The notes under the pieces are model-generated. The model worked only from the letters and a program-made list of their open reading frames with translations. It ran no database searches and had not been told where the DNA came from. The position numbers and the translations under genes were made by a program. Positions 2,671 through 25,212 of a stretch of DNA of 25,371 nt are shown one piece after another (positions within the stretch are counted from its first letter, which is position 1; every line of letters starts with the position of its first letter). The DNA is from a virus, in the IMG/VR virus record IMGVR_UViG_3300009285_001669, positions 1 through 25,371 of that record; one strand, given 5' to 3'.

Positions 2671-3344
2671 ATATTTTTGTGATACCGTCCACCTTTTAAG
2701 CGCCACCCCTCGGATTGTTCCATGTGTTTGAACGTCTCAATACAATGAGAGACTTCGTCCGAATATCTCTTGGCGTAAGCTCCTACTCTGGCGGAATTCT
2801 CTCTCGACGGGTCCGTAACCATAAGCTCTTTGGCGGCGAAATAGGCTAGGGCGTTGTGATATGGGACTAATAGAGTATGTCCGTCCAGCGGGACGGAACT
2901 ATCGGTAGACAATGTCGGGGGTATCTTTACATATTCAATAGCTACATTCGCCCCGGCGTCGGCGCCCGTGGGGATTGGATAGAGTCCGTATTTCTTGTTA
3001 TTGGGGTCTAGGTCAACGTAGTAATAGAGAGGAGTACCGGAGTCGTCGTCCCATCGTTCCGTAGTGTAGAAATCGAGGTCGGCCTTGGATATCCTCCGTA
3101 ATTCGACGCCTTTGTGGGCGACTCTGACGATATCCATAACGTCCGAAGGTAACGCATATTCCTGCGTCCCGTCCACGCTGGTGTCTGTTGTGGAGTCCCG
3201 GAGAACCCTGGTATCTAATACAAATCGTTCTTGCGCTTCTTGGAGCTTATCTTGTATCTGTGTAGTGGTAAATTCTTGGTTTGAAATGTCATGCAACAGA
3301 AAGCTGACGAGTGTCGTCAGTGAAACCCGCGTTTGGCTCGGCAT
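2667..3344 (-). CDS. Head-tail adaptor (connector) protein
   Basis: 225 aa, the usual size for podovirus adaptors of the P22 gp4/SU10 type. The N-terminal part is helical (TTLVSFLLHDISNQEFTTTQIQDKL), then comes the family-like pattern of a short beta segment GTQEYALPSDVMDIVRVAHKG with SGTPLYYYVD and YGLYPIP, and a C-terminal helix DEVSHCIETFKHME. It would bind under the portal ring and link it to the hub encoded next. Its stop overlaps the hub start by four bases (ATGA). Its own start lies 56 bases inside the 3' end of the upstream glycosyltransferase gene. The adaptor call rests on fold pattern, length and position between portal/capsid genes and hub. Confidence 0.7.
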   Translation of the reverse strand: MPSQTRVSLTTLVSFLLHDISNQEFTTTQIQDKLQEAQERFVLDTRVLRDSTTDTSVDGTQEYALPSDVMDIVRVAHKGVELRRISKADLDFYTTERWDDDSGTPLYYYVDLDPNNKKYGLYPIPTGADAGANVAIEYVKIPPTLSTDSSVPLDGHTLLVPYHNALAYFAAKELMVTDPSRENSARVGAYAKRYSDEVSHCIETFKHMEQSEGWRLKGGRYHKNI

Positions 3345-4488
3345 TTGTGATTTCCTCGATTGTGCGCAAGTATTTTTCGGCTTGCTTTCGAGGGGTCCAG
3401 TTCTCTCGAACCTCGTTCAATGCACTCTTTCCAATGCTTGCCCGTAGTTGCGGGTCATTGATTAAGCGTGTCAACTGGCTTACCCATTCATCAGGACTAT
3501 CCGCAAACAGTCCCGTTTTGCCGTCAACTATGCTCAGTTTGAAATTCTCTACTGGGGATGCTACTGTCGGAATTCCCATGGCGGAATATTCCAACCACCT
3601 TAAATTGCTTTTTGCTCGGTTAAAGGTATTGTCTAACAACGGCGCTATTCCGATGTCGAACCCTTCCTTAGATACCCACTCCGGGTATTTGTCGATGGAC
3701 GTAAATTTGTGCGACCACTGAACCATTGGTAGGCCACCACACCGGGGGCACGGATCTCCTTTATGGTAACGGGGGTCGTTGGTATCGAGCCACGAACAAT
3801 CGGGCGTATGCTTAAAGAATTCGGGGCATCCGTGAAGGATTTTGAATCTGACGTGCTTGTTTTGTGAGCAGACATCTTGAACAACGTTTTTAATAAGTGC
3901 CAGGTCTTTTTCATGCGTCGCACCTCCCACCCATCCTATATTTATCCTCCGGCGGCGAGGGGGAGGGCTACGCCGCCAGAGGGAAGAGTCGATGGTGTTC
4001 TCTACCACCCGAATGTTTTGGTGGTATTTTTCTAGGCGTTTCTTCAAAAATGGTGTTGAAACTATGATACCGTCGCATCCCTTGATCTGCCGGAGTAGAA
4101 TTTCCGACAAAGGACTCCCCGGATAGTATGCCTGAGACCCAACGTTATAACCTGGGACATCAAACACGATATCGTCCAACTCCAATAAGAACGGCTTGCC
4201 AGAGTGTTTCAGGCGCATTTCCTCGTAGAATTTCAAGGCGGACGGCGTATGAACGGCCATCCAAACGACTACGTCGCCCCATTCGCAAGCCATGTCCAAG
4301 TCTTTTCGTATCGCCCATCCGATTTCGGGATTGTCAATCTCCCACTCAAAATCGGGGCGCTTAAATTGATCGTGCTTATACCAGAGAAGTGCTGCTTTGT
4401 GCCCCATCTTCCGCATTTCCATGGCAGGAGCCCACATTCGGTAATACGCAACACCCGCTACCTCCGTGACAACGAAACTTATTTTCAA
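3289..4488 (-). CDS. GT-B fold glycosyltransferase with a Cys-pair insertion
   Basis: 399 aa. The second Rossmann domain is clear: GWVGGATHEKDL at about 185-196 and FDIGIAPLLDNTFNRAKSN at 277-295 followed by LEYSAMGIPTVAS, the nucleotide-sugar site of GT4/GT1-like enzymes, and a C-terminal NDPQLRASIGKSALNEV helix. The N-terminal acceptor domain contains LLELDDIVFD at 101-110. Between the two halves of the donor domain, around residues 221-252, there is an unusual segment with C221, C231 and a CPRCGG motif (C247, C250) that could hold a metal ion. It overlaps the next glycosyltransferase start by four bases. Donor and acceptor cannot be told from sequence. The family is sure, the substrate unknown. 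Confidence 0.9.
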   Translation of the reverse strand: MKISFVVTEVAGVAYYRMWAPAMEMRKMGHKAALLWYKHDQFKRPDFEWEIDNPEIGWAIRKDLDMACEWGDVVVWMAVHTPSALKFYEEMRLKHSGKPFLLELDDIVFDVPGYNVGSQAYYPGSPLSEILLRQIKGCDGIIVSTPFLKKRLEKYHQNIRVVENTIDSSLWRRSPPPRRRRINIGWVGGATHEKDLALIKNVVQDVCSQNKHVRFKILHGCPEFFKHTPDCSWLDTNDPRYHKGDPCPRCGGLPMVQWSHKFTSIDKYPEWVSKEGFDIGIAPLLDNTFNRAKSNLRWLEYSAMGIPTVASPVENFKLSIVDGKTGLFADSPDEWVSQLTRLINDPQLRASIGKSALNEVRENWTPRKQAEKYLRTIEEITNAEPNAGFTDDTRQLSVA

Positions 4489-5171
4489 ATGACGCTCTTC
4501 TTCAATGCCAGGATAGTTTCCTCATCCCGCTTTTTGGGGATGTAGCGGTAGTAAACGAGAGGTGCGTTAATCAAGCCATACTTGAATCCGGCCCTGTGTA
4601 ATTCCAACTGAAGACGCCAATCGTCGATTCCGTGCTTTGAAAAATCCCCGTTTACATACTGGACCTTCTCGAAAACCTTCTTTCTAAAAGCCATCGTTGA
4701 ATGGCCTATGTGGAAGAAAAGACCAGAACTGTTAAGCATCCTTTGGTAGTTGAACGGCTCGGCCTTAACTTCCCCCTGAACCTGGTTAATCGGATCGAGA
4801 ACCCAGAACCCGCCATAGACAACATCCACATCAGGATTTGCATCAAGGAATTGAGTTGTCTTTTTTACCCTATTCAGGTTCGGGATATCGTCGGCATCAT
4901 TTGTTAGGATGATGTCCGACTGTGCCGCATTAATCCCCGCATTTCTTGCGGAGCTTCTACCCTTATTCTCCGCAAAATATATGGGTACAATGCGCTTGTC
5001 ATTCTTTGCGAAATACTCAATGACCTTCTTTGTGGAGTCCGTTGAGCAGTCGTCAACAACGACAATCTCTATTTTCTTGACCGTCTGCCTTTGGCAAGCG
5101 TCCAGAGTTTCAGCCAACCATGCCGCGCCGTTGTAAACGGGTATGACGAAGGAAGCCGCTTTCCTAGGCAT
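4485..5171 (-). CDS. Family 2 glycosyltransferase
   Basis: 228 aa from the ATG at 5171, chosen over the upstream in-frame starts because GGAGG lies six bases before it and it overlaps the previous stop by eight bases. The GT-A fold is plain: FVIPVYNGAAWLAETLDAC at the N terminus, VVVDDCSTDST at 37-47, ENKGRSSARNAGI at 68-80, and a metal-binding DXD motif in TNDADDIP (D92, D94). A downstream GIDDWRLQLEL supplies the usual ED/DD acceptor-side motif. It should add a sugar from a nucleotide-sugar donor in the cytoplasm. It sits in a run of three glycosyltransferases and a carbamoyltransferase, so it is probably part of one glycan pathway. Slightly shorter than many GT2 enzymes but apparently complete. 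Confidence 0.92.
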   Translation of the reverse strand: MPRKAASFVIPVYNGAAWLAETLDACQRQTVKKIEIVVVDDCSTDSTKKVIEYFAKNDKRIVPIYFAENKGRSSARNAGINAAQSDIILTNDADDIPNLNRVKKTTQFLDANPDVDVVYGGFWVLDPINQVQGEVKAEPFNYQRMLNSSGLFFHIGHSTMAFRKKVFEKVQYVNGDFSKHGIDDWRLQLELHRAGFKYGLINAPLVYYRYIPKKRDEETILALKKSVI

Positions 5172-6675
5172 TGACAACCTCCAACACCGGGGAAATGCGT
5201 GAAAGAATCGCATCCCTGAACCTCTCGGGGGACATGACATCCTTATAGTAGTCCTGTGCCTCTTTGTTGAACGTCGGATTGGCTTGAATCTCTCGGATTT
5301 TCGCTATGACGTTTTCCTTGAAAGCTACCGGATCGGCGGGGTCAATATACCCCGAATACGGCTCTTGGACGTTGGATATCATATGCCGCCCAAGAATCAA
5401 GGCGTTCCGTGCAGCCGTGACGAATCTGCCGTCCTTCAAGAAGTACAGGACAACCGTGTAGTCGCTGAACGGGAAAGCCTTCTTGTCTTGGAACTTGTCA
5501 AAGTCAACGTCCGGCATGGCTCGAATGATGGAGTCAACGATAGGCTCATATTCCTTGTCCGAGAATGCCAATACCTTGAAGTCCTTGGGGATGTCCGTTA
5601 GCAGTTCCCCCTTGGCTACTGGGAGAGTCAAGATGTCCGTCTTGATTCCCAAATCTTCCAGGGTGTTCTTGGTTTTCACGTCGGGGCAATAATTGGCGGA
5701 TATCTTGCCGTTAATTCCCTCGATCAATGCCTTGGTTTGCATAAACGGACCGTTGGCAAGCATGTCGGCATCTAACCCCATCCAATAGATTATTTTCTTG
5801 GATTCCTTCCCTGACGCATTGGCAAAGAACAACGCCGTTTCCATTTCCATCGGATTAAACCCGAATATCAGGCAAGCCTTATACTCATGAGTAATCCAGA
5901 ATGGCCCGTTGAAGTAGTCTGCGTCCAGAATTTGAGCCACGTTTACGGCTTCTTGTTTCATAATGTCGCCGTAGACGAGGATGTCCGCCTTGGCGTCTCC
6001 GTGTTTCTCCCGAACCTTATTGATTCGTTCCACGGCTTTTTCGCGGGCAGAAACACCTGAGATTGAATCCTGATCTGGAAATTCAGTTTCAAAACCGGCG
6101 GAGACGGCATTTGTTCCACATGGAACATATAGACCTTTTGCCCCGGAGTCCACCATACGCCTGAAATAGTCCCAGTCCTGTAACCCTTCCAAGTTTTCAT
6201 CCCATTCCAAGACTTTGTCCCGGCGAATAGGAGACATGGAGCAGATATAATTGTATTTCTTCAACAGCCAAGGATTCAGCGGTTCGGACGCATATCCGGG
6301 AATTTGTGGATCAGTCCACTTATACCCGGAATAAAGAAAGTCGGGATACGGTTTGTCCCTGAAATACTCCAACCATGTCTTTGCCATCTCCGGCATTGCG
6401 TAACAATCCGCGTCCCAAAAGCAGACGATTTCGCCCGTCGATTCCTTGAACCCTGTGTTCCTTGCCTTACATGCGCCGCCGTGGTCGCCGACCACCTTTT
6501 TCACCCGTTTGTCTTTCTTGGCGAAAGCCTCTACTTCGGCTTCTAAAGTCGCGTCTGGGCCGTCGAACGACGCGACGACCTCAATGTCCGTGTAGGACAT
6601 ATCCAACAGAGATTCGATGCACCGCTTCAATTGCTCCAGCGGCTTTTTATATATCGGCAAAACAAACGAGATCAT
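5164..6675 (-). CDS. Two-domain glycosyltransferase: N-terminal GT2 plus C-terminal second domain
   Basis: 503 aa with AGGGGAG five bases before the ATG. Residues 1-210 form a GT2 domain: ISFVLPIYKKPLEQLKRCIE, VVASFDGPDATLE, GGACKARNTGF at 66-76, DXD in CFWDADCYA (D88, D90) and the acceptor motif LQDWDYFRR. Residues of about 225-503 are a second alpha/beta domain beginning ADILVYGDI and ending with a segment resembling the donor half of GT-B enzymes (FPFSDYTVVLYFLKDGRFVTAARNALILGRH and a final helix). The gene starts one base after the carbamoyltransferase stop, so the two are translated together. Two catalytic halves suggest it makes two successive linkages, but the second half could be non-catalytic. 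Confidence 0.88.
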   Translation of the reverse strand: MISFVLPIYKKPLEQLKRCIESLLDMSYTDIEVVASFDGPDATLEAEVEAFAKKDKRVKKVVGDHGGACKARNTGFKESTGEIVCFWDADCYAMPEMAKTWLEYFRDKPYPDFLYSGYKWTDPQIPGYASEPLNPWLLKKYNYICSMSPIRRDKVLEWDENLEGLQDWDYFRRMVDSGAKGLYVPCGTNAVSAGFETEFPDQDSISGVSAREKAVERINKVREKHGDAKADILVYGDIMKQEAVNVAQILDADYFNGPFWITHEYKACLIFGFNPMEMETALFFANASGKESKKIIYWMGLDADMLANGPFMQTKALIEGINGKISANYCPDVKTKNTLEDLGIKTDILTLPVAKGELLTDIPKDFKVLAFSDKEYEPIVDSIIRAMPDVDFDKFQDKKAFPFSDYTVVLYFLKDGRFVTAARNALILGRHMISNVQEPYSGYIDPADPVAFKENVIAKIREIQANPTFNKEAQDYYKDVMSPERFRDAILSRISPVLEVVNA

Positions 6676-6676
6676 G

Positions 6677-8311
6677 CTATCTCCCCTTTTCTAAGACGAA
6701 ATTACCCAAAACCATGATGTCCATCCCTACCCCGGCGAAGCAGCGCAAAGCCTCTTCGGGTGTTCGGATGATAGGCTCGCCCATGATGTTCAAAGACGTA
6801 TTCAACAATACGGGATGTCCTGTTAACTTCCCGAACTGGGTCAACAACTCATGGAACTTCGGGTTTTCTTCTTTACGAAGAATCTGAGGCCGAGCCGTGT
6901 TGTCAACGTGTGTCACGGCTGGTATGTGTGTATTCTTTACATTGCAAGCGGTAATCATAAATTCGCCACCGCCATCGAAATAGGCGGACGCCGCCTCCGA
7001 TATCACGGACGGACAGAATGGCCGGAAAGACTCCCGAAACTTAACGTCCCGATTGATAATGTCCTTATTGCAAGCCTTTAAAGGAGACATCAAAATTGAT
7101 CTATTCCCTAGCGCCCTCGGACCGGCTTCCATCGCCCCCTGGAACCATCCCACGATTTTGTTATCAAGTAGTTGCCGAGCCACATAGTCACTTTCATACG
7201 GCTTGTGTGCGAGTTTGTTCCTTTCAAGGATCGTTTTGATTTGGTCGTCCGCATATTCCGGCCCCCAATAAAGATTTCCTACCCTGATCGGTTCATACGG
7301 CTTATCGGTCGTTTTCCAATATTCCCGAAGCGCCGCGCCTATTGGAATTCCAGAATCGCCCGCCAGAGGGAAAGCCCAATAGTTCTCCCCATATTTCTCA
7401 GCCAAAAGCTGGTTGACTTTGACATTCAAAAACACACCCCCAGAGGTGCAAATCCTATCGGAATTCGTCTTTCTCACCCATTCATCGACAAGATTGACCA
7501 CCTCTTTTTCAAGGAGACGTTGCGCCGCCGCCGCTAAATTTTCGCGCCCGTATTTCAACATCAATTCTTGATAGTATCTGGCGGACTCCATTGAATAGTA
7601 TGTCCTTCCGCTGTTCTGGTAGTATCCGACCCTGCCAGCATCGTAGAGTTTGACCCTCATCAACTCTTCGGGAATAGCGTCAGGATCGCCGTAGGGGGCA
7701 AGCCCCATAGTCTTTCCCTCGTCACAACAAATTCGCCATCCCAACGCCTCTGTCACCGCCGAATAAAACCAACCCAAAGACTCAATTTTCTTGGCAGGAA
7801 ACTTCTTTAACTCAAATGCCCCGTCGTTCTTCCTGGTGTATTCCCCATCGACTGTTTTTATATAGATCGCCTTGAGGTCTTTCCCTTCGGCCAGATAGGT
7901 CGACACCGTCGTATTGCCGCCTATTCCATCAGCAACAACAACCAGAGACTTATCAAAGCCAGAAGTATAATAAGCACTGGCAGCATGGCACTCATGATGC
8001 TCATATTGCGATATGCGATTTATGTCGTAACATTTGTCCAACAACCAGAGAGGAAACCCTTCCAGTTTCGACGCTTTCGTGAGCGCATCCAAGTGAACCT
8101 TTACTATGCCGTGAGTCGCGTTTTCCGTAGCCAACTTGTCAATTTCGGACATCTTGTTGTCGCCCAAACAGTAAGACAGCGATTCATGCGGTCCGCAAAG
8201 TCCGACTTTGATACGGTTAAACCTTTCCTCGGCGACATAGCGCACGATACGCCCATCTTCGACTAGGCAGGCTGCTGAATCGTGGCCTATGACTACGCCG
8301 AGTATTTTCAT
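6677..8311 (-). CDS. NodU/TobZ-family O-carbamoyltransferase
   Basis: 544 aa, the full length of the family. It uses carbamoyl phosphate and ATP to transfer a carbamoyl group, usually to a sugar hydroxyl. The Kae1-like N-terminal domain carries GVVIGHDSAACLVEDG at the start, the metal-binding HHECHA at 105-110, ADGIGGN at 127-133, EGKTMGLAPYG at 198-208 and CTSGGVFLNVKVNQ at 288-301. The YrdC-like C-terminal domain carries WFQGAMEAGPRALGNRS at 389-405, the signature of this family. All key residues appear present. Its start shares one base with the previous stop (TAATG), and glycosyltransferases follow directly, so a phage-made glycan is the likely acceptor. NodU acts on Nod factors and TobZ on aminoglycosides; here the target is unknown. 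Confidence 0.95.
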   Translation of the reverse strand: MKILGVVIGHDSAACLVEDGRIVRYVAEERFNRIKVGLCGPHESLSYCLGDNKMSEIDKLATENATHGIVKVHLDALTKASKLEGFPLWLLDKCYDINRISQYEHHECHAASAYYTSGFDKSLVVVADGIGGNTTVSTYLAEGKDLKAIYIKTVDGEYTRKNDGAFELKKFPAKKIESLGWFYSAVTEALGWRICCDEGKTMGLAPYGDPDAIPEELMRVKLYDAGRVGYYQNSGRTYYSMESARYYQELMLKYGRENLAAAAQRLLEKEVVNLVDEWVRKTNSDRICTSGGVFLNVKVNQLLAEKYGENYWAFPLAGDSGIPIGAALREYWKTTDKPYEPIRVGNLYWGPEYADDQIKTILERNKLAHKPYESDYVARQLLDNKIVGWFQGAMEAGPRALGNRSILMSPLKACNKDIINRDVKFRESFRPFCPSVISEAASAYFDGGGEFMITACNVKNTHIPAVTHVDNTARPQILRKEENPKFHELLTQFGKLTGHPVLLNTSLNIMGEPIIRTPEEALRCFAGVGMDIMVLGNFVLEKGR

Positions 8312-10181: not shown

Positions 10182-10690
10182 TGTCCCCACTCCTGGACAT
10201 GCGCGTTTTCGGCGGACGTGTGAAGCGATAAAAGCCATATATAGATAGAATCCCCCGCAGCAATACATGGCCCTTCCCCCGTCTCAATTTCTCCCGGCCT
10301 GACAGTCGTCGCCTCTCCGGGAATAACGGAAGAAGTTGACGGGATGTAGACAAACGACGCATTGTTGCTCGACGGATTAGAAACTTTGACACAAGCGCGA
10401 TTTGACAGGCTGCTTGACGTAACAGCGTTGGTCCATGCAAATGTCGAAACGGATACCGTCGTCCCGGTCCCAACCCGAGAAATAGGCACTTCCCGGACGC
10501 CTACGGTGGAGGTGTTTACGGAGACAGGCAGGGGATTGGAGGAGGTGACGGAGGAGCCGTTGACAGAAACAACAACGGTATTCGACATAGTGCTTATTCG
10601 TATCGAATTCAGGACATTTACATTGTCCATCCCCGCAAAAACAATCTCCGGGGCAAGTAGCGCAAAAGCTACTAAAAGTATTTTCTTCAT
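10178..10690 (-). CDS. Secreted or virion beta-rich protein with signal peptide
   Basis: 170 aa. The N terminus MKKILLVAFALLAPEIVFAG has a KK n-region, an apolar core and a VFA cleavage site. The mature part is very Ser/Thr/Val-rich (SSVTSSNPLPVSVNTSTVGV) with alternating polar and apolar residues as in beta-structured fibre parts, and has only two Cys residues near the end. It overlaps the glycosyltransferase upstream and the fibre-like gene downstream by four bases each (ATGA). No enzymatic motif. I read it as an accessory fibre or surface protein. Its Ser/Thr-rich surface would suit O-glycosylation by the neighbouring enzymes, but that is inference. Confidence 0.75.
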   Translation of the reverse strand: MKKILLVAFALLAPEIVFAGMDNVNVLNSIRISTMSNTVVVSVNGSSVTSSNPLPVSVNTSTVGVREVPISRVGTGTTVSVSTFAWTNAVTSSSLSNRACVKVSNPSSNNASFVYIPSTSSVIPGEATTVRPGEIETGEGPCIAAGDSIYIWLLSLHTSAENAHVQEWGQ

Positions 10691-11499
10691 TTCAATACCG
10701 CCTCAAATTCGTCTTTGTATTTGCTGAACACTTCGGGCAATTCGTCTTTCCGAGGGGCAAACTCAAACTCTCCAAATTGGCTGTTTTGACTTTCGAGGTG
10801 AACCCTCGGATGATTCATTACTAAGTCAAACAAAGACCCCTTGTCGTTGATGTTGAATACCGTCTTGAACACTGTCTCCATTTTCTGCTCTCGGCGTTTG
10901 CGAGGCTTTGATTCACAAAAATGCTCTAAATGGATGCCAGAATCTTCGACGATAAACGGGTATTGGCGCATGTCCTTATAGACGTTGTGCTGGTTCCCCG
11001 TGATCGCCGTGAAATACATATCCTCATTTGGATCGCCGTAGCATCCCCAATACTTCAACCCAAACCCGTTCCGCATAATGGTCTTCCACTTGTTCGTCCG
11101 GCCCTTCGTTATCTCGGTTTTTAGGTCTTCCCCTGCGAACGACCGCATGTTGACGTAGTATGCTAAACCGGACATCTGCTCCCGATTCGCAAGGATTCCT
11201 GGTTTCGTCAGGATCATGTCAGGATGAGCATATAGCAAGTAAGAACCGGAACACTCCTTCATGCACTCGTTGAAGGTTTTAACGTAATTTTCCTTGAAGT
11301 CGGTAAAATCCCTGTTCTTGAATATCTTGATTTTTCCGCTTGGGTCATACTTCTCTTTGATGTAGTCCAACAATCGGAGAGTGCCATCAGTTGAAGAATC
11401 AAAGTAGACAATTTCGTCTACGTGGGGCAGTAACGACATTGCCCCGTGGCCGATAAAATCCTGTTCGTTTTTTATGACCGAAAAAGCGGAAACCGTCAC
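10687..11499 (-). CDS. GT2-like glycosyltransferase with an atypical metal motif
   Basis: 270 aa starting at a GTG that directly follows the TAA of the upstream gene; an in-frame stop precedes it, so no earlier start is possible. The start of the GT-A fold is visible: TVSAFSVIKNEQDFIGHGAM, then EIVYFDSSTDGTLRLLDYI in place of the usual vvDd.StDgT. Where GT2 enzymes have DXD this protein has LLYAHPDMIL (about 90-99), keeping only one Asp. HLEHFCESKPRKRREQ in the C-terminal half could be an acceptor or catalytic region. It lies between two genes for signal-peptide proteins. Glycosyltransferase is the best call, but activity with the altered motif is uncertain. Confidence 0.75.
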   Translation of the reverse strand: MTVSAFSVIKNEQDFIGHGAMSLLPHVDEIVYFDSSTDGTLRLLDYIKEKYDPSGKIKIFKNRDFTDFKENYVKTFNECMKECSGSYLLYAHPDMILTKPGILANREQMSGLAYYVNMRSFAGEDLKTEITKGRTNKWKTIMRNGFGLKYWGCYGDPNEDMYFTAITGNQHNVYKDMRQYPFIVEDSGIHLEHFCESKPRKRREQKMETVFKTVFNINDKGSLFDLVMNHPRVHLESQNSQFGEFEFAPRKDELPEVFSKYKDEFEAVLK

Positions 11500-15513: not shown

Positions 15514-17458
15514 GAGGTTGCATCCCCGGATTTCCCATCCCGCCAGCTGGTGAAGGCGGCGTCTCGCTTGACGTCTGCTTCGTCGGCCTCGAAATAGACG
15601 GGACGCCCTGTCCCATACCCATCGGCGTAGGCATTGGCCCTTGTTCCAGTCCTTCCATCAATTCGCTGACTTCGTCAGACGACAATTCCGAATACTTAAA
15701 CAACCGCTTAATAGCGGGAACGGGGTTCCAACCTGGAACAACAGAAGCCATCAACTGCATTTTGGACGCGAGGTCCTGGGACTTCTGCATTTTGTTTTCC
15801 TGTGAAAAAACATCAACGGGGACAAAGTCGTAGCAAATGTCTATCTCTTCTGGCGATTGTCGTTTCCAAGTCTGCCACCTAGCGACAAATTCGCCAGGAA
15901 GCGTCTCAATAGGGACATCACCGAGTATTCGCCGGACAGATTCATCACTAATGTTGAGGTAGACCAGCTCGGAAACCTTCTTCGCGATCTTAACGTCAAG
16001 AGTCCTACCTATGATAAAGGCGTATACCGTGAACCTGTCGAAAGCGGCCTGTCGCATGAGTTCCATGCCGCCCAATGTCTGATTGGTGTCGTTGACGAGC
16101 CCAGCTGTCCCAGTGGTGACACGATTAGCCGCCGTAGTCTCTTGAATCTGTCTTTCTAGTTCCCCGGTTTCTCTAAAAGCCGACAAGGGAACATCTGAAA
16201 TTTGTATCTCCGCGAACGCCTTTCGAATATCATCAATTTCCGAACCCTTGAAACGGATGATTCCACCCGGTTTAGACCTCAACTCCTTAGGATCAACGAT
16301 GTATTTCTCGACAACCGCTATCATCTTGTTCATGATCAGAGTCACGTTGTCGATTCGCTGATTGCGGATTTCGTTGAATTCGTCCTGCAACCCTTCAATA
16401 AGCTGCGCCACTCCAATCCCATACCCGCCACCAGGAGAAGGAATGTAGTCAGCCTTTACAAATTCCGGCTCGTCCGTGTAATTATTGGATTCACCAGAAG
16501 CGAGGAAGTAATCAGCTGACGCGACAAACGCCTTGCCGGGAGTCACCTCCATGGCAGCTTTCTTCTGTTCCTCCGTGTCCTCCGGCATATCCAAATTGAT
16601 CCACTTCAACGGCAACGGCCCGGAATACTCCCACACCGTATGCCGCTTGTCGAAACCCTGCCTTGGCAATTTCGGGTCAGTTACACCTTGGTCGCCCTTG
16701 CTCGTCCGCAAATCGTCCTCAAAGTTGTCGTTTTCCGTGACATCGAACAATTCTTTGACAGAATCCGAATCAAACAACCCTTGGTCGGCCAGCTGCCTTA
16801 ACTCGTTATAGGTCAACTTCTCCCTATGAATGAGTCGGCTCAAATCCGTGAAGTTTGGCTCAGGGAAGATGTTCCTGATATGGATGTGCTTGAACGTCAC
16901 GCCGTCTTTAACTAGAACGTCTTCCCAGTCCTTCGTAGTCCCGATTTTTTGCGGCATACGCATCTTCGCCATGGCAGACAAAAGAGTCTCCATCTTGTCT
17001 TTGACGACTCGCCTCTTTGCGTATTTCTTCTCCCAATAAACCTTCATGAACGCTGAACCGTAAATCGACAATTCTTTGATAACGTGGTATCGGTTCAGAT
17101 CGTAATCGCCCTTCTCCCTGTAATAGTCCACAATGTCCGTATTCAACTCGGCCTGCAACTCGTCCCCCGACTCCCTCGGCTCCAATGCGATAGGACGCTT
17201 CTTCCCGGACCCTATCTTTGTCAATGAAGCGGTAATCACTTCAACACTCGTGACTGTCGCAGGAACAAACATGGTCGCTTGCCACGATTCCTTCTTGGCC
17301 GCAATGTCCGGGTCATAAATGTTTCTATAGTTCCGTTCGTATTTGTCCCATTTGGCATCGTATGCCTGCCTACGCCAATTGTTGGAAGTCTCGTAGAAAT
17401 TCCGAACGAACTTTACGACTTCCTGCTTGTGTATCGCTTTCCAATCTTTATCAGCCAT
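15506..17458 (-). CDS. Portal protein
   Basis: 650 aa from the ATG at 17458, which has AGAGGA six bases before it; the frame is open to 17536 but that part lies in the inverted-repeat leader. It resembles P22/SU10-like podovirus portals: N-terminal SNNWRRQAYDAKWDKYERNY, SWQATMFVPATVTSVEVITAS, HVIKELSIYGSAFMKVYWEK for the wing, IHIRNIFPEP, then GYGIGVAQLIEGLQDEFNEIRNQ and the long helix LGGMELMRQAAFDRFTVYAF, with a Pro/Met/Gly-rich tail. Twelve copies form the DNA channel at one vertex. It follows a structured leader, so it may be separately controlled. Confidence 0.9.
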   Translation of the reverse strand: MADKDWKAIHKQEVVKFVRNFYETSNNWRRQAYDAKWDKYERNYRNIYDPDIAAKKESWQATMFVPATVTSVEVITASLTKIGSGKKRPIALEPRESGDELQAELNTDIVDYYREKGDYDLNRYHVIKELSIYGSAFMKVYWEKKYAKRRVVKDKMETLLSAMAKMRMPQKIGTTKDWEDVLVKDGVTFKHIHIRNIFPEPNFTDLSRLIHREKLTYNELRQLADQGLFDSDSVKELFDVTENDNFEDDLRTSKGDQGVTDPKLPRQGFDKRHTVWEYSGPLPLKWINLDMPEDTEEQKKAAMEVTPGKAFVASADYFLASGESNNYTDEPEFVKADYIPSPGGGYGIGVAQLIEGLQDEFNEIRNQRIDNVTLIMNKMIAVVEKYIVDPKELRSKPGGIIRFKGSEIDDIRKAFAEIQISDVPLSAFRETGELERQIQETTAANRVTTGTAGLVNDTNQTLGGMELMRQAAFDRFTVYAFIIGRTLDVKIAKKVSELVYLNISDESVRRILGDVPIETLPGEFVARWQTWKRQSPEEIDICYDFVPVDVFSQENKMQKSQDLASKMQLMASVVPGWNPVPAIKRLFKYSELSSDEVSELMEGLEQGPMPTPMGMGQGVPSISRPTKQTSSETPPSPAGGMGNPGMQPLG

Positions 17459-17481
17459 TCGATTCCTCTTTTTCAAATGTC

Positions 17482-17640
17482 CCATGCACAAAAAAGAGCC
17501 GATTATTAATGGCAACGGGAGGATTCGTCGCGGCAATAATCGGCTCTTAGAAACCGTGCATGGAGGGTGAGTCCTAGAAGACTCTCGCGGGAGCTACCCG
17601 CCCCTTATGGTTTTTGGCAGTAACCCGCCTTGCGGGTCAC
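17482..17640 (-). ncRNA. Structured leader upstream of the portal gene
   Basis: Several nested inverted repeats occur in 160 bases without a gene. CCATGCAC at 17482-17489 pairs with GTGCATGG at 17556-17563. Inside it a perfect 14-bp arm at 17494-17507 pairs with 17535-17548. Then GAGTC at 17569-17573 pairs with GACTC at 17580-17584, GCGGG at 17587-17591 with CCCGC at 17597-17601, and GTAACCCGC at 17620-17628 with GCGGGTCAC at 17632-17640 (one mismatch). On the minus strand it lies in the leader of the portal mRNA. Function unknown; I do not claim an RNA family. Confidence 0.6.
17489..17548 (-). terminator. Terminator-like hairpin with T-run, minus direction
   Basis: Read on the minus strand, the 14-bp stem ending CGGCTCTT is followed by a TTTTTT run (17490-17495 on the plus strand as A residues). 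The loop is long (27 nt), so it may act as an attenuator rather than a full stop, because the portal and all capsid genes lie downstream and no strong promoter is visible between. Confidence 0.5.
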
Positions 17641-17650
17641 GCCCTAAATT

Positions 17651-22797: not shown

Positions 22798-23088
22798 CTA
22801 ATTGCCGTACTCATTTTCGGCCTCGAAATTTTGGGATACATTGATTCTTCCCGAACCTCTTTTGCGACCTTCCTTATCAATCCATGTGGGGGGTAAATCG
22901 GGGCATGATCCATCGGATTTTTCGCGGCAATTATCCCGGAGATAATTCAACATCCGTCCTCTGATTACTTTTTTGCTCGCGGCCTTTTTTCCAAGCTTGA
23001 AAATTTCCAGATTCCCAACAGAAATGAGATCATCGAAATGGAGATTATTAGGTGGTAGGATCGAACGGGCGATTGACTCTATATTCAT
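22798..23088 (-). CDS. Sigma-70 region 2-like small protein
   Basis: 96 aa. Residues of about 17-57 (HFDDLISVGNLEIFKLGKKA then VIRGRMLNYLRDNCRE) match the shape of sigma factor region 2: the acidic ..DDLisvG.l.. helix that contacts RNA polymerase and the IRGrmlnYLRd helix before the -10 binding part. The aromatic -10 recognition section is not evident, and the C-terminal 40 residues are polar and unrelated. There is no region 4. The start is fixed by a stop codon directly before the ATG; the ribosome site is poor. It may be a sigma-like or anti-sigma-like regulator of late transcription. Confidence 0.6.
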   Translation of the reverse strand: MNIESIARSILPPNNLHFDDLISVGNLEIFKLGKKAASKKVIRGRMLNYLRDNCREKSDGSCPDLPPTWIDKEGRKRGSGRINVSQNFEAENEYGN

Positions 23089-23117: not shown

Positions 23118-23294
23118 TTACAACCAATCTTTCAAATATTTCTTCATCTTTTTTAATTGGGAGGATATTGCCTGTTGGGATTTCTGTAGTAATTTTCCGA
23201 TTTCAGTTTGTGACATTCCACGGTAGATGAGCCGAGCGACTAGCTGATCTTTCATCCGCATTTTTTCCATAGCTAATTTTAAATCCAACTCCAT
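23118..23294 (-). CDS. Small helix-turn-helix protein, sigma region 4-like
   Basis: 58 aa with GAGGTAAAC just before the ATG. The core RLIYRGMSQTEIGKLLQKSQ followed by QAISSQLKKMKKYLKDWL is a helix-turn-helix of the kind found in sigma region 4.2 and in small phage regulators (Sq.eIg..l..sq.aiS..l). It lies 29 bases upstream of the region 2-like gene, so the two may work as a split factor. Alternatively it is a simple repressor of the leftward early operon, of which it is the first gene. Confidence 0.65.
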   Translation of the reverse strand: MELDLKLAMEKMRMKDQLVARLIYRGMSQTEIGKLLQKSQQAISSQLKKMKKYLKDWL

Positions 23295-23394: not shown

Positions 23395-23422
23395 TTGACA
23401 AATATCTGCGGTCTGGTATACT
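23395..23422 (+). promoter_or_regulatory. Strong rightward early promoter
   Basis: A perfect TTGACA at 23395-23400, a 16-base spacer and TATACT at 23417-23422, with an AT-rich stretch upstream. Transcription should start near 23429, exactly where the first helix of the structured RNA begins. It drives the RNA and the following repressor-like genes. Confidence 0.8.
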
Positions 23423-23428
23423 ATATAT

Positions 23429-23546
23429 GTAGCCAATCGGTGAGCCCCCACCTCAGCGGGGCTAGGGGGAGCGCGGATCATGTGCAGCGATGACCGCGAG
23501 CGCCACCGGGTCGCCGGGGCGCTGGCGTGGGGGGCTCTCGGGCTAC
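23429..23546 (+). ncRNA. GC-rich multibranch structured RNA in the early leader
   Basis: About 118 nt, very GC-rich in an AT-rich surrounding. P1: GTAGCC 23429-23434 with GGCTAC 23541-23546. P2: GAGCCCCCAC 23442-23451 with GTGGGGGGCTC 23527-23537 (one bulged G). P4: CGCGG/CCGCG (23472-23476, 23494-23498) and TCAT/ATGA (23478-23481, 23490-23493) with an 8-nt loop. P5: AGCGCC 23499-23504 with GGCGCT 23518-23523, then CCGG/CCGG and a GTCG loop. A weaker hairpin lies at 23452-23466. An alternative pairs AGCCCC 23443-23448 with GGGGCT 23458-23463, excluding P2. It precedes the RHH gene; a put-like antiterminator, riboregulator or riboswitch-like role is possible. Confidence 0.7.
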
Positions 23547-23576
23547 CGGAAAATCTGATCGAAATCGAAGGGGAAA

Positions 23577-23747
23577 ATGGAAAATAAAAAAAGCACATAC
23601 ACTCTGAACGTAAGGCTCGCCGCCGACGAGAAAAAAATGCTCGACGACATCGCGCAAGCGGACCATGATGGACTCACGGGAATGATCAAAAAATTGATTA
23701 TTGATTACTGGCGGAAACTGAAAAGCCAGGGGATTATCAACCCCTAA
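23577..23747 (+). CDS. Ribbon-helix-helix (Arc/CopG-like) protein
   Basis: 56 aa with AAGGGG four bases before the ATG. MENKKSTYTLNVRLAADEKK gives the short N-terminal strand (TYTLNVRLA) followed by helix MLDDIAQADHDG and a second helix LTGMIKKLIIDYWRKLK, the layout of ribbon-helix-helix regulators, which bind operators as dimers through paired strands. It is the first gene of the rightward transcript, 30 bases behind the structured RNA. It most likely represses one or both divergent promoters. It is shorter than most annotation limits. Confidence 0.75.
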   Translation: MENKKSTYTLNVRLAADEKKMLDDIAQADHDGLTGMIKKLIIDYWRKLKSQGIINP

Positions 23748-23798: not shown

Positions 23799-23918
23799 AT
23801 GAAACGAACCCTAGTAAATCGGCTTAGAATTAAAATGTGGATGACCCTAGAATGTTGGGCGCGGCAGCAAAAGGTTAACGCGGTTTTTCAGGCATCTAAA
23901 AAACGGATCGGGAGGTAA
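23799..23918 (+). CDS. Small 39-aa basic protein
   Basis: MKRTLVNRLRIKMWMTLECW begins a basic 39-aa protein ending KKRIGR, with an excellent AGGAGG ribosome site eight bases upstream. Its stop is five bases before the next ATG, and the next gene's GGAGG lies in its last codons. A small hairpin, TGTAAT 23765-23770 with ATTACA 23775-23780, lies just upstream of the ribosome site. Function unknown. Confidence 0.6.
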   Translation: MKRTLVNRLRIKMWMTLECWARQQKVNAVFQASKKRIGR

Positions 23919-23923
23919 CGAAA

Positions 23924-24223
23924 ATGAAAACTCAAAACGACATGGTACGATTTTACCAGATAGCGGAGTTACGTCTTTCGGAGCTGGGACCGCGAGACAA
24001 AAACATCAATATAAAAGTGGCTCGCAACACAGCGCAAATGATGGTCAACGAGGAAAAGCGCCTTATGAAGGCGGCGCCGGAGCTTTTGGAAGCAGCGAAA
24101 GCGGCAATTGCTGAAATTGATAGGCTGATCCGAGAAAAAAATCCATTATCGGGTGAGCGTCTTACAAATCCGGCATCGGTGGCGCTCACGCTGGCCATCG
24201 CAAAAGCCGAAGGGAGGGTATAG
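23924..24223 (+). CDS. Small conserved-type phage protein (APELLEA family)
   Basis: 99 aa with GGGAGG ahead of the ATG. The core KAAPELLEAAKAAIAEIDRL with the C-terminal ALTLAIAKAEGRV is a pattern seen in many small early or replication-region phage proteins, whose function is unknown. It is all-helical and has no catalytic residues. It follows the 39-aa gene closely and precedes the 328-aa gene by two bases, so these genes form one transcript. Confidence 0.8.
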   Translation: MKTQNDMVRFYQIAELRLSELGPRDKNINIKVARNTAQMMVNEEKRLMKAAPELLEAAKAAIAEIDRLIREKNPLSGERLTNPASVALTLAIAKAEGRV

Positions 24224-24225
24224 AA

Positions 24226-25212
24226 ATGGCAACCTATGACCTCGGCAGCGGAATGAAACGGATTGACGTATCAGCAAACAACGCAAAAAACAGTCTCCCT
24301 ATAGGGACCGTTCTTCAACTTAATGGGTATTCATGTCCCCGTTATGTCGTCGTAAAAAATGAGGGGATAGATCAAAATTACGGCTATGGAGCGCGCTATC
24401 TGACCGTTTCCCTGGAGGACGGGAAATTTTCTAAATCAGACGCTTATGGCATGATGCACATCAGCGAGAAAACGTCAAACCGCATCCAAATGTATTATAC
24501 GGATGATGTCGTATCTCCGGATGAGTGCCTCCGTCTCTATGAAAAAGCATCCGCCCTTCAAAAATTGGAGGAGCAAATAAAAGAAGACTCGGCAAAGCGG
24601 ATATCCGCTCTCGTGGAAAAAGGGAAGAAAATAGCAGCAGAGAAAGGCATAGACGCTTTCTCGGCGCTGATTGTGGCTGAGTATGAGCAAGATGACTGTG
24701 ATTTACACACGGATTACTTCAACACCAAAACCACACAAATGATAATCCTCTCCACCTCAAAACACGCCAGGGACTTGTTTCCAGAAATGAGAAAGGCGGC
24801 AGGGAAATTCGAGAAAACAGCGCACCTTGGAACAGGAAAGGGGGATTTTACCGCTTACGTCTCGATCGGCGCGGACTTCAAGAGCAATGGGAGTTACTAC
24901 TCTGCCGGATGCCAGTCCCACTGGCACAACGAGCTTATAAGGAAATTTAAAACGAGAGCAGAAGCGGAGGCGTATATCAACAGCCAACCAACGCCGGGGG
25001 CAGTGTCATTTGACGGCGTCCTTGTCCCGTTTCTGTGGGAAATCTCTGAAAACAATATCGAACACCGTGAGAAATACAGTATGGGGGTGGGATACTACCT
25101 CAAGGCGTCGTCTAGGTATTCATCCGGCTGGACGGTCAGCAAGCGGCGAAAATATGGCAATACTTGGGGGGATGACATATATATATCACTGGCTCAAATC
25201 TGCTTACTCTAA
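24226..25212 (+). CDS. 328-aa phage or mobile-element protein, function unknown
   Basis: Ribosome site GGGAGGG seven bases before the ATG. Beta-rich N-terminal part (NSLPIGTVLQLNGYSCPRYV, GYGARYLTVSLEDGKF), a helical or coiled-coil segment at about 102-142 (LQKLEEQIKEDSAKRISALV), then a middle with CDLHTDYFNTK and AGCQSHWHNELI whose His and Cys residues might hold metal, and a beta-rich end (YYLKASSRYSSGWTVSKRRK). The helical middle is followed by RAEAEAYINSQ. I do not recognise the family. No signal peptide or membrane segment. It is the last gene of the early rightward transcript before an opposing gene. Confidence 0.85.
   Translation: MATYDLGSGMKRIDVSANNAKNSLPIGTVLQLNGYSCPRYVVVKNEGIDQNYGYGARYLTVSLEDGKFSKSDAYGMMHISEKTSNRIQMYYTDDVVSPDECLRLYEKASALQKLEEQIKEDSAKRISALVEKGKKIAAEKGIDAFSALIVAEYEQDDCDLHTDYFNTKTTQMIILSTSKHARDLFPEMRKAAGKFEKTAHLGTGKGDFTAYVSIGADFKSNGSYYSAGCQSHWHNELIRKFKTRAEAEAYINSQPTPGAVSFDGVLVPFLWEISENNIEHREKYSMGVGYYLKASSRYSSGWTVSKRRKYGNTWGDDIYISLAQICLL

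Follow-up and report, generated by a model that had tools for sequence, protein, structure and literature searches.

A structured leader at the predicted start of an early phage transcript, tentatively read as a 5'-terminal stabilising element

Here we describe a GC-rich structured leader (23429-23546, + strand) that opens at the predicted first nucleotide of an early operon in an uncultured virus of bacteria. The window analysed is the whole 25,371-base viral contig. Our tentative reading, which we put forward with reserve, is that a polycistronic early mRNA of the phage starts with this 5'-terminal structured leader, which would shield the message from decay and may also adjust translation via a small open reading frame (ORF). 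The leader is similar to elements of a known kind and would be new mainly in its sequence. If it does stabilise or time the first message of the infection, it represents a compact RNA solution to early expression that sequence annotation overlooks.

Genomic setting of the leader

The leader sits at a divergence at ~23,300, where the direction of transcription switches. The leftward genes are structural and encode a portal protein (PF23899/PHROG 332), a major head protein (PHROG 1357), a terminase small subunit and a TerL-like protein, the last of which was assigned via relatives. Among the phage structural genes, at 3289-8311 and 10687-11499 (-), we also noticed by eye glycosyltransferase-like genes, and the same regions hold a NodU/carbamoyltransferase-like gene (E 3.5e-39).

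Rightward of ~23,300 the genes are small and closely spaced, in a layout typical of an early region, and we take them to be early genes on account of this position and layout. A gene at 23577-23747 (+) encodes a 56-aa protein that is probably ribbon-helix-helix (RHH)-like, with weak DUF6290/RelB-like similarity (matches at E 0.007 and E 0.06, both below the cut-off); AlphaFold returned for this protein alone a two-helix model of low confidence, which was uninformative. Next in the operon is a 39-codon ORF (23799-23918, +), which occupies the space from the RHH-like gene to that for a 99-aa protein and has a strong Shine-Dalgarno sequence (energy -10.8). The 99-aa early protein (23924-24223, +) belongs to PHROG 1273, and the 328-aa early protein that follows (24226-25212, +) fell into no family that we could find.

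On the other side of the divergence, a small gene at 23118-23294 (-) resembles sigma-70/ECF region 4 (TIGR02937, E 1.5e-8, below the cut-off), and the adjoining small gene at 22798-23088 (-) has weak similarity to region 2 (E 0.02-0.03; motif FDDLISVGNLEIFKL...IRGRMLNYLRDN). The two could possibly form a split sigma factor for the late genes, with a layout like that of SigO/RsoA or T4 gp33/gp55.

A strong promoter precedes the leader

A sigma-70-type promoter lies at 23395-23422 (+). It combines TTGACA (23395-23400), a 16-nt spacer and an extended -10 element, TG-N-TATACT (TG at 23414-23415, TATACT at 23417-23422), and matches 11 of 12 consensus bases. Only one site of the form TTGACA-N15-19-TATAMT occurs in the window, against 0.01 expected. 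The original prediction had called this promoter perfect, which is slightly overstated, because the -10 element matches at 5/6 positions. The best predicted +1 is G23429, 7 nt past the -10 element, in agreement with the start at about 23429 that had been proposed.

The leader is predicted to fold into one closed domain

The leader has a minimum free energy (MFE) of -68.5 kcal/mol and a z-score of about -3.0, and only 1 of 200 dinucleotide shuffles folded as well. Among 1,265 windows on both strands it has both the lowest MFE and the highest GC content (74% vs 48%). Its z-score is not unique, since values of -3 or lower were found in 37 of these 1,265 windows. The strongest z-score, about -5.5, belongs to 17454-17650 (-), where a clear terminator hairpin (AAGAGCCGATTATT...AATAATCGGCTCTTTTTT) comes after a further GC-rich, structured stretch. 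This stretch separates the portal gene from another gene and could be a small RNA or a structured intergenic element.

The MFE structure of the leader is a single 118-nt domain with a long-range closing helix and three inner hairpins, so that the 5' and 3' ends are adjacent and closed, as in many stable RNAs. The two strands of the outer helix (23429-23449 and 23530-23546, +), detected by folding and as inverted repeats I3 and I9, make up the arms of an imperfect 20-nt inverted repeat and form 17 pairs (6 + 3 + 8), namely 23429-34/23541-46, 23438-40/23538-40 and 23442-49/23530-37, with the first pair at +1 and an interruption by a 3-nt loop. The six-pair helix that had been proposed at the end of this structure (23429-23434/23541-23546) was recovered with pair probabilities of 0.94-0.97 for the first six bases in a 332-nt context. 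Among random 170-mers, 43 of 600 (7%) paired their first six bases. The outer helix is kept when folding is extended to 23600 or 23760, and can be replaced in the MFE structure to 23660.

Inside the domain, hairpin A (23451-23468, +) holds most of the Shine-Dalgarno sequence of a small ORF, hairpin B (23471-23485, +) carries ATG23480, the start codon, at the edge of its loop, and hairpin C (23494-23529, +) includes a ten-pair helix with one bulge at 23499-23509/23514-23523, just as had been predicted. The two further stems of the original prediction are also present but are modest, with 7 and 5 pairs, rather than long. Folding of successive prefixes showed that local hairpins form first, including the alternative pairing of 23443-23448 with 23458-23463 that had been suggested, which already forms in a nascent chain of 36 nt. 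The outer helix closes only after 23530-23546 has been made, and the closed and open forms differ by about 15 kcal/mol.

We also considered whether the leader acts as an intrinsic terminator or attenuator. Since there is no U-run 3' of the outer helix, we rejected this candidate.

A 35-codon ORF is embedded in the structure

The original prediction overlooked an ORF inside the structure. This 35-codon ORF (MCSDDRERHRVAGALAWGALGLPENLIEIEGENGK; 23480-23587, +) starts at ATG23480 and overlaps the start of the RHH-like gene by 11 nt, and it could specify a leader peptide or be a small gene. Its Shine-Dalgarno sequence, AGGGGGAG (23464-23471, +), lies 8 nt 5' of the ATG and has an anti-Shine-Dalgarno duplex energy of -9.3 kcal/mol, to be compared with -6.7, -10.8, -11.6 and -11.8 for the four following genes. 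Shuffling the island yielded an ORF as good with an ATG start in 66 of 3,000 cases, and with any start in 191 of 3,000. With such a good ribosome site in place, it is unsafe to read the region as RNA only.

One alternative, which we regard as rather unlikely, is that the region is primarily a GC-rich small coding gene, possibly a recent acquisition, that comes first in the early operon and whose structure is a by-product of composition. The ribosome site is similar to those elsewhere in the early operon, the stop codon overlaps the next start, an equally good ATG ORF is seen in few shuffles of the island, and the frame is the best of six with a codon score of +2.3. However, this score is weak, as true 35-codon pieces have a median of 4.6 and the best wrong frame a median of 1.6, and another frame slightly outscores that of the ORF when only the GC-rich part is counted. 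We found no homologue of the 35-aa product, and the 5' strand of the outer helix lies outside the ORF. The evidence for the ORF is no more than suggestive.

The structure also surpasses what the protein would require. When the protein was kept and its synonymous codons were permuted, the observed energy was reached in 14 of 1,000 versions; with random GC-rich synonymous codons it was never reached (0/1,000), and when only the part before the ATG was shuffled it was reached in 22 of 1,000. The codon-permuted and pre-ATG shuffles therefore place the pairing between the 5' strand and the ORF beyond the demands of composition and protein, at about the 1-2% level. Since the fold is stronger than both the dinucleotide and the protein-preserving shuffles, it is probably real. 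The ORF and the structure may both be real, and such dual content is a warning that small genes may go unnoticed in structured phage leaders, and vice versa.

A proposed model of 5'-end protection, weighed against other roles

RppH and RNase E depend on single-stranded 5' ends, and mRNA can be stabilised by 5' secondary structures (review PMC3997798). In the model that we tentatively prefer, transcription would begin at G23429 and the nascent RNA would make local hairpins; once 23530-23546 has been made, it would pair with the first bases to give the 17-pair helix that includes the first nucleotide. Lacking unpaired 5' bases, the early message would be attacked more slowly by the pyrophosphohydrolase RppH and by 5'-end-dependent ribonucleases, provided that the host has such enzymes, and would be longer-lived. 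The structure would also enclose the ribosome site of the 35-codon ORF, so ribosomes on this ORF would melt the helix or oppose its closure, and translation could be coupled to that of the RHH-like gene, as the 11-nt overlap suggests.

Stabilisation appears to be the most economical reading because the helix includes the first nucleotide, which is hard to explain otherwise. The strong promoter with its predicted +1 and the firm pairing of the first bases argue for it, as does a fold that beats 986 of the 1,000 versions with permuted codons and every one of the 1,000 with random synonymous codons. Several points weigh against it: no homologue of the leader was found, the leader of the nearest relative is unstructured (see below), 7% of random 170-mers pair their first six bases as well, and a GC-rich fold of 118 nt is bigger than a stabiliser requires.

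The closest known counterparts are the 5' stabilising stem-loops of the ompA/papA type. Like these, given the predicted +1, the leader begins directly with a helix that leaves no base unpaired at the extreme 5' end and lies upstream of a ribosome site, and it would be likely to shut out RppH and 5'-dependent RNase E. In contrast to them, it is much larger, branched and phage-borne, and it contains the start of an ORF.

The shift from early hairpins to a late outer helix raises a second possibility, that the leader is a regulatory switch in which a protein or the ribosomes on the small ORF decide between the 23443-23448/23458-23463 pairing and the closed form, and so adjust how strongly the RHH-like gene is expressed, perhaps by autoregulation. 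We consider this unlikely. The prefix folds do shift as the 3' strand emerges, with the energy difference between closed and open forms given above, and the Shine-Dalgarno sequence and ATG of the small ORF, which overlaps the RHH-like start, are partly hidden in the closed form. However, such alternatives are seen in most GC-rich RNAs, and we found no relative with the same arrangement. The ribosome site of the RHH-like gene (~23569-23573) lies outside the fold, and control of this gene by the leader, one of the roles first suggested, is therefore not favoured if it works by hiding that site.

The leader could also be an RNase III processing site or the source of a short stable RNA, with the long helix cut and the leader removed or released; this seems improbable to us. 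T7-type phages carry RNase III sites in their early messages, and these share with the leader an imperfect long hairpin before the first genes, while the leader, a putative site, is branched and carries an ORF. The interrupted 17-pair helix would be a plausible substrate, and the adjacent, closed ends would suit a stable RNA. Against this, the helix is broken by a 3-nt loop, and there is no terminator 3' of 23546, so release of the leader would need cutting. The leader matches no RNA family, phage packaging RNA included. The phi29 pRNA, likewise encoded by a phage, also has inner branches and 5' and 3' ends that are paired, but the leader has no Rfam match and this phage has terminase genes.

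The leader is not a put RNA

The original prediction compared the leader to the put RNAs of phage HK022. To place putL, we used the nucleotides named in a cryo-EM paper (PMC9378689), which match uniquely, at 29/29 letters, in the genome stretch read. Nine put RNAs were collected and aligned for covariance models, and model R2 was built from seven putL RNAs, with putR and the PdC23 put held out. R2 recovered the unseen putR at 44-45 bits and the divergent PdC23 put at 46 bits and gave no match in the leader; with filters off, model R1 scored the leader at -1.7 bits (23431-23497). The leader and putL have a 10-mer in common, GGGAGCGCGG (+39 to +48 and +34 to +43, respectively), which looked suggestive to the eye, but their local alignment is not significant, as 265 of 2,000 shuffles aligned as well. 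Since the models recover held-out put RNAs but not the leader, and the alignment test fails despite GGGAGCGCGG, the leader is not a put RNA and the suggested kinship does not hold.

Beyond the shared 10-mer, the leader and the HK022 RNAs putL and putR are alike in being highly structured RNAs that begin an early phage transcript. They differ in architecture, as put consists of two tandem stem-loops of about 70 nt whereas the leader is one closed 118-nt domain, in which two-hairpin-like forms occur only in prefixes. The leader also has none of the put-invariant blocks GAACGGC, GTCGG, AGGA and CAAT.

Readthrough of terminators by put RNAs depends on the beta' zinc-binding domain of RNA polymerase. 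A cis-acting antiterminator outside the put family, whose RNA would bind the transcribing polymerase and make it ignore terminators, is in our view very doubtful for this leader. The leader's place at the head of an early transcript, the rich structure and the 10-mer shared with putL are in keeping with it, and putL likewise sits immediately downstream of its promoter (PMC9378689). On the other hand, the put models find nothing, the similarity to putL is non-significant, the fold is a single closed domain, and the window has no convincing + strand terminator downstream of the leader; the sole terminator-like site there (24404-24422) is a weak one within a coding frame. There is likewise little likelihood that the leader founds a class of phage early-leader RNA of its own, with no sequence relationship to put, which acts on the polymerase or as a translation-driven switch via the 35-codon ORF. 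Were it to act on the polymerase, antitermination by RNA alone would have a second design besides put.

Relatives and independent 5'-terminal structures

As the original prediction supposed for an undescribed RNA, the leader has no Rfam match at the gathering threshold, and relaxed thresholds gave only chance-level matches (E about 7). We found no leader homologues in phages, viral contigs or genomes. DNA similarity searches of phages and plasmids returned just short GC-rich chance matches, and the leader DNA patterns matched nowhere else, with no second copy for the patterns searched. A pattern joining the promoter to GTAGCC gave 11 matches in viral contigs, 0 of them with the same leader. 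At the protein level, the RHH-like, 99-aa, 328-aa and upstream sigma-like proteins had no homologues in viral contigs, and the RHH-like protein had none in genomes.

The nearest relative found (L002) has a TerL about 74% identical. It has a similar predicted extended -10 early promoter and the same GTAGCC start, a resemblance that is weak, as 181 of 5,000 shuffles were as good and it was chosen after the fact. Its leader is short, with a ribosome site and without structure. Because this leader is unstructured, the element is not needed in relatives, nor is it general among the close relatives found.

The absence of the element from this relative would also fit a region with no RNA function, that is, a GC-rich inverted repeat acting at the DNA level (an operator or an inserted element) or a product of chance, an explanation that we judge quite unlikely. 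The number of windows with z <= -3 and the imperfect 20-nt repeat formed by the arms point the same way. However, the MFE and GC content are extreme, the helix begins at the predicted +1, the arms are not flanked by a visible target-site duplication, and the patterns searched turned up no second copy.

Two other contigs drew our attention. In an unrelated phage contig (L009, 6640-6440, -), the predicted +1 opens a small GTAGC...GCTAC hairpin, which is followed by a second hairpin and then a gene; this is an independent 5'-terminal structured leader. In L017 (4311, +), a large near-perfect 20-pair palindrome with repeated CCCTACTATG units lies directly after a promoter-like -10 element and is probably a repeat element.
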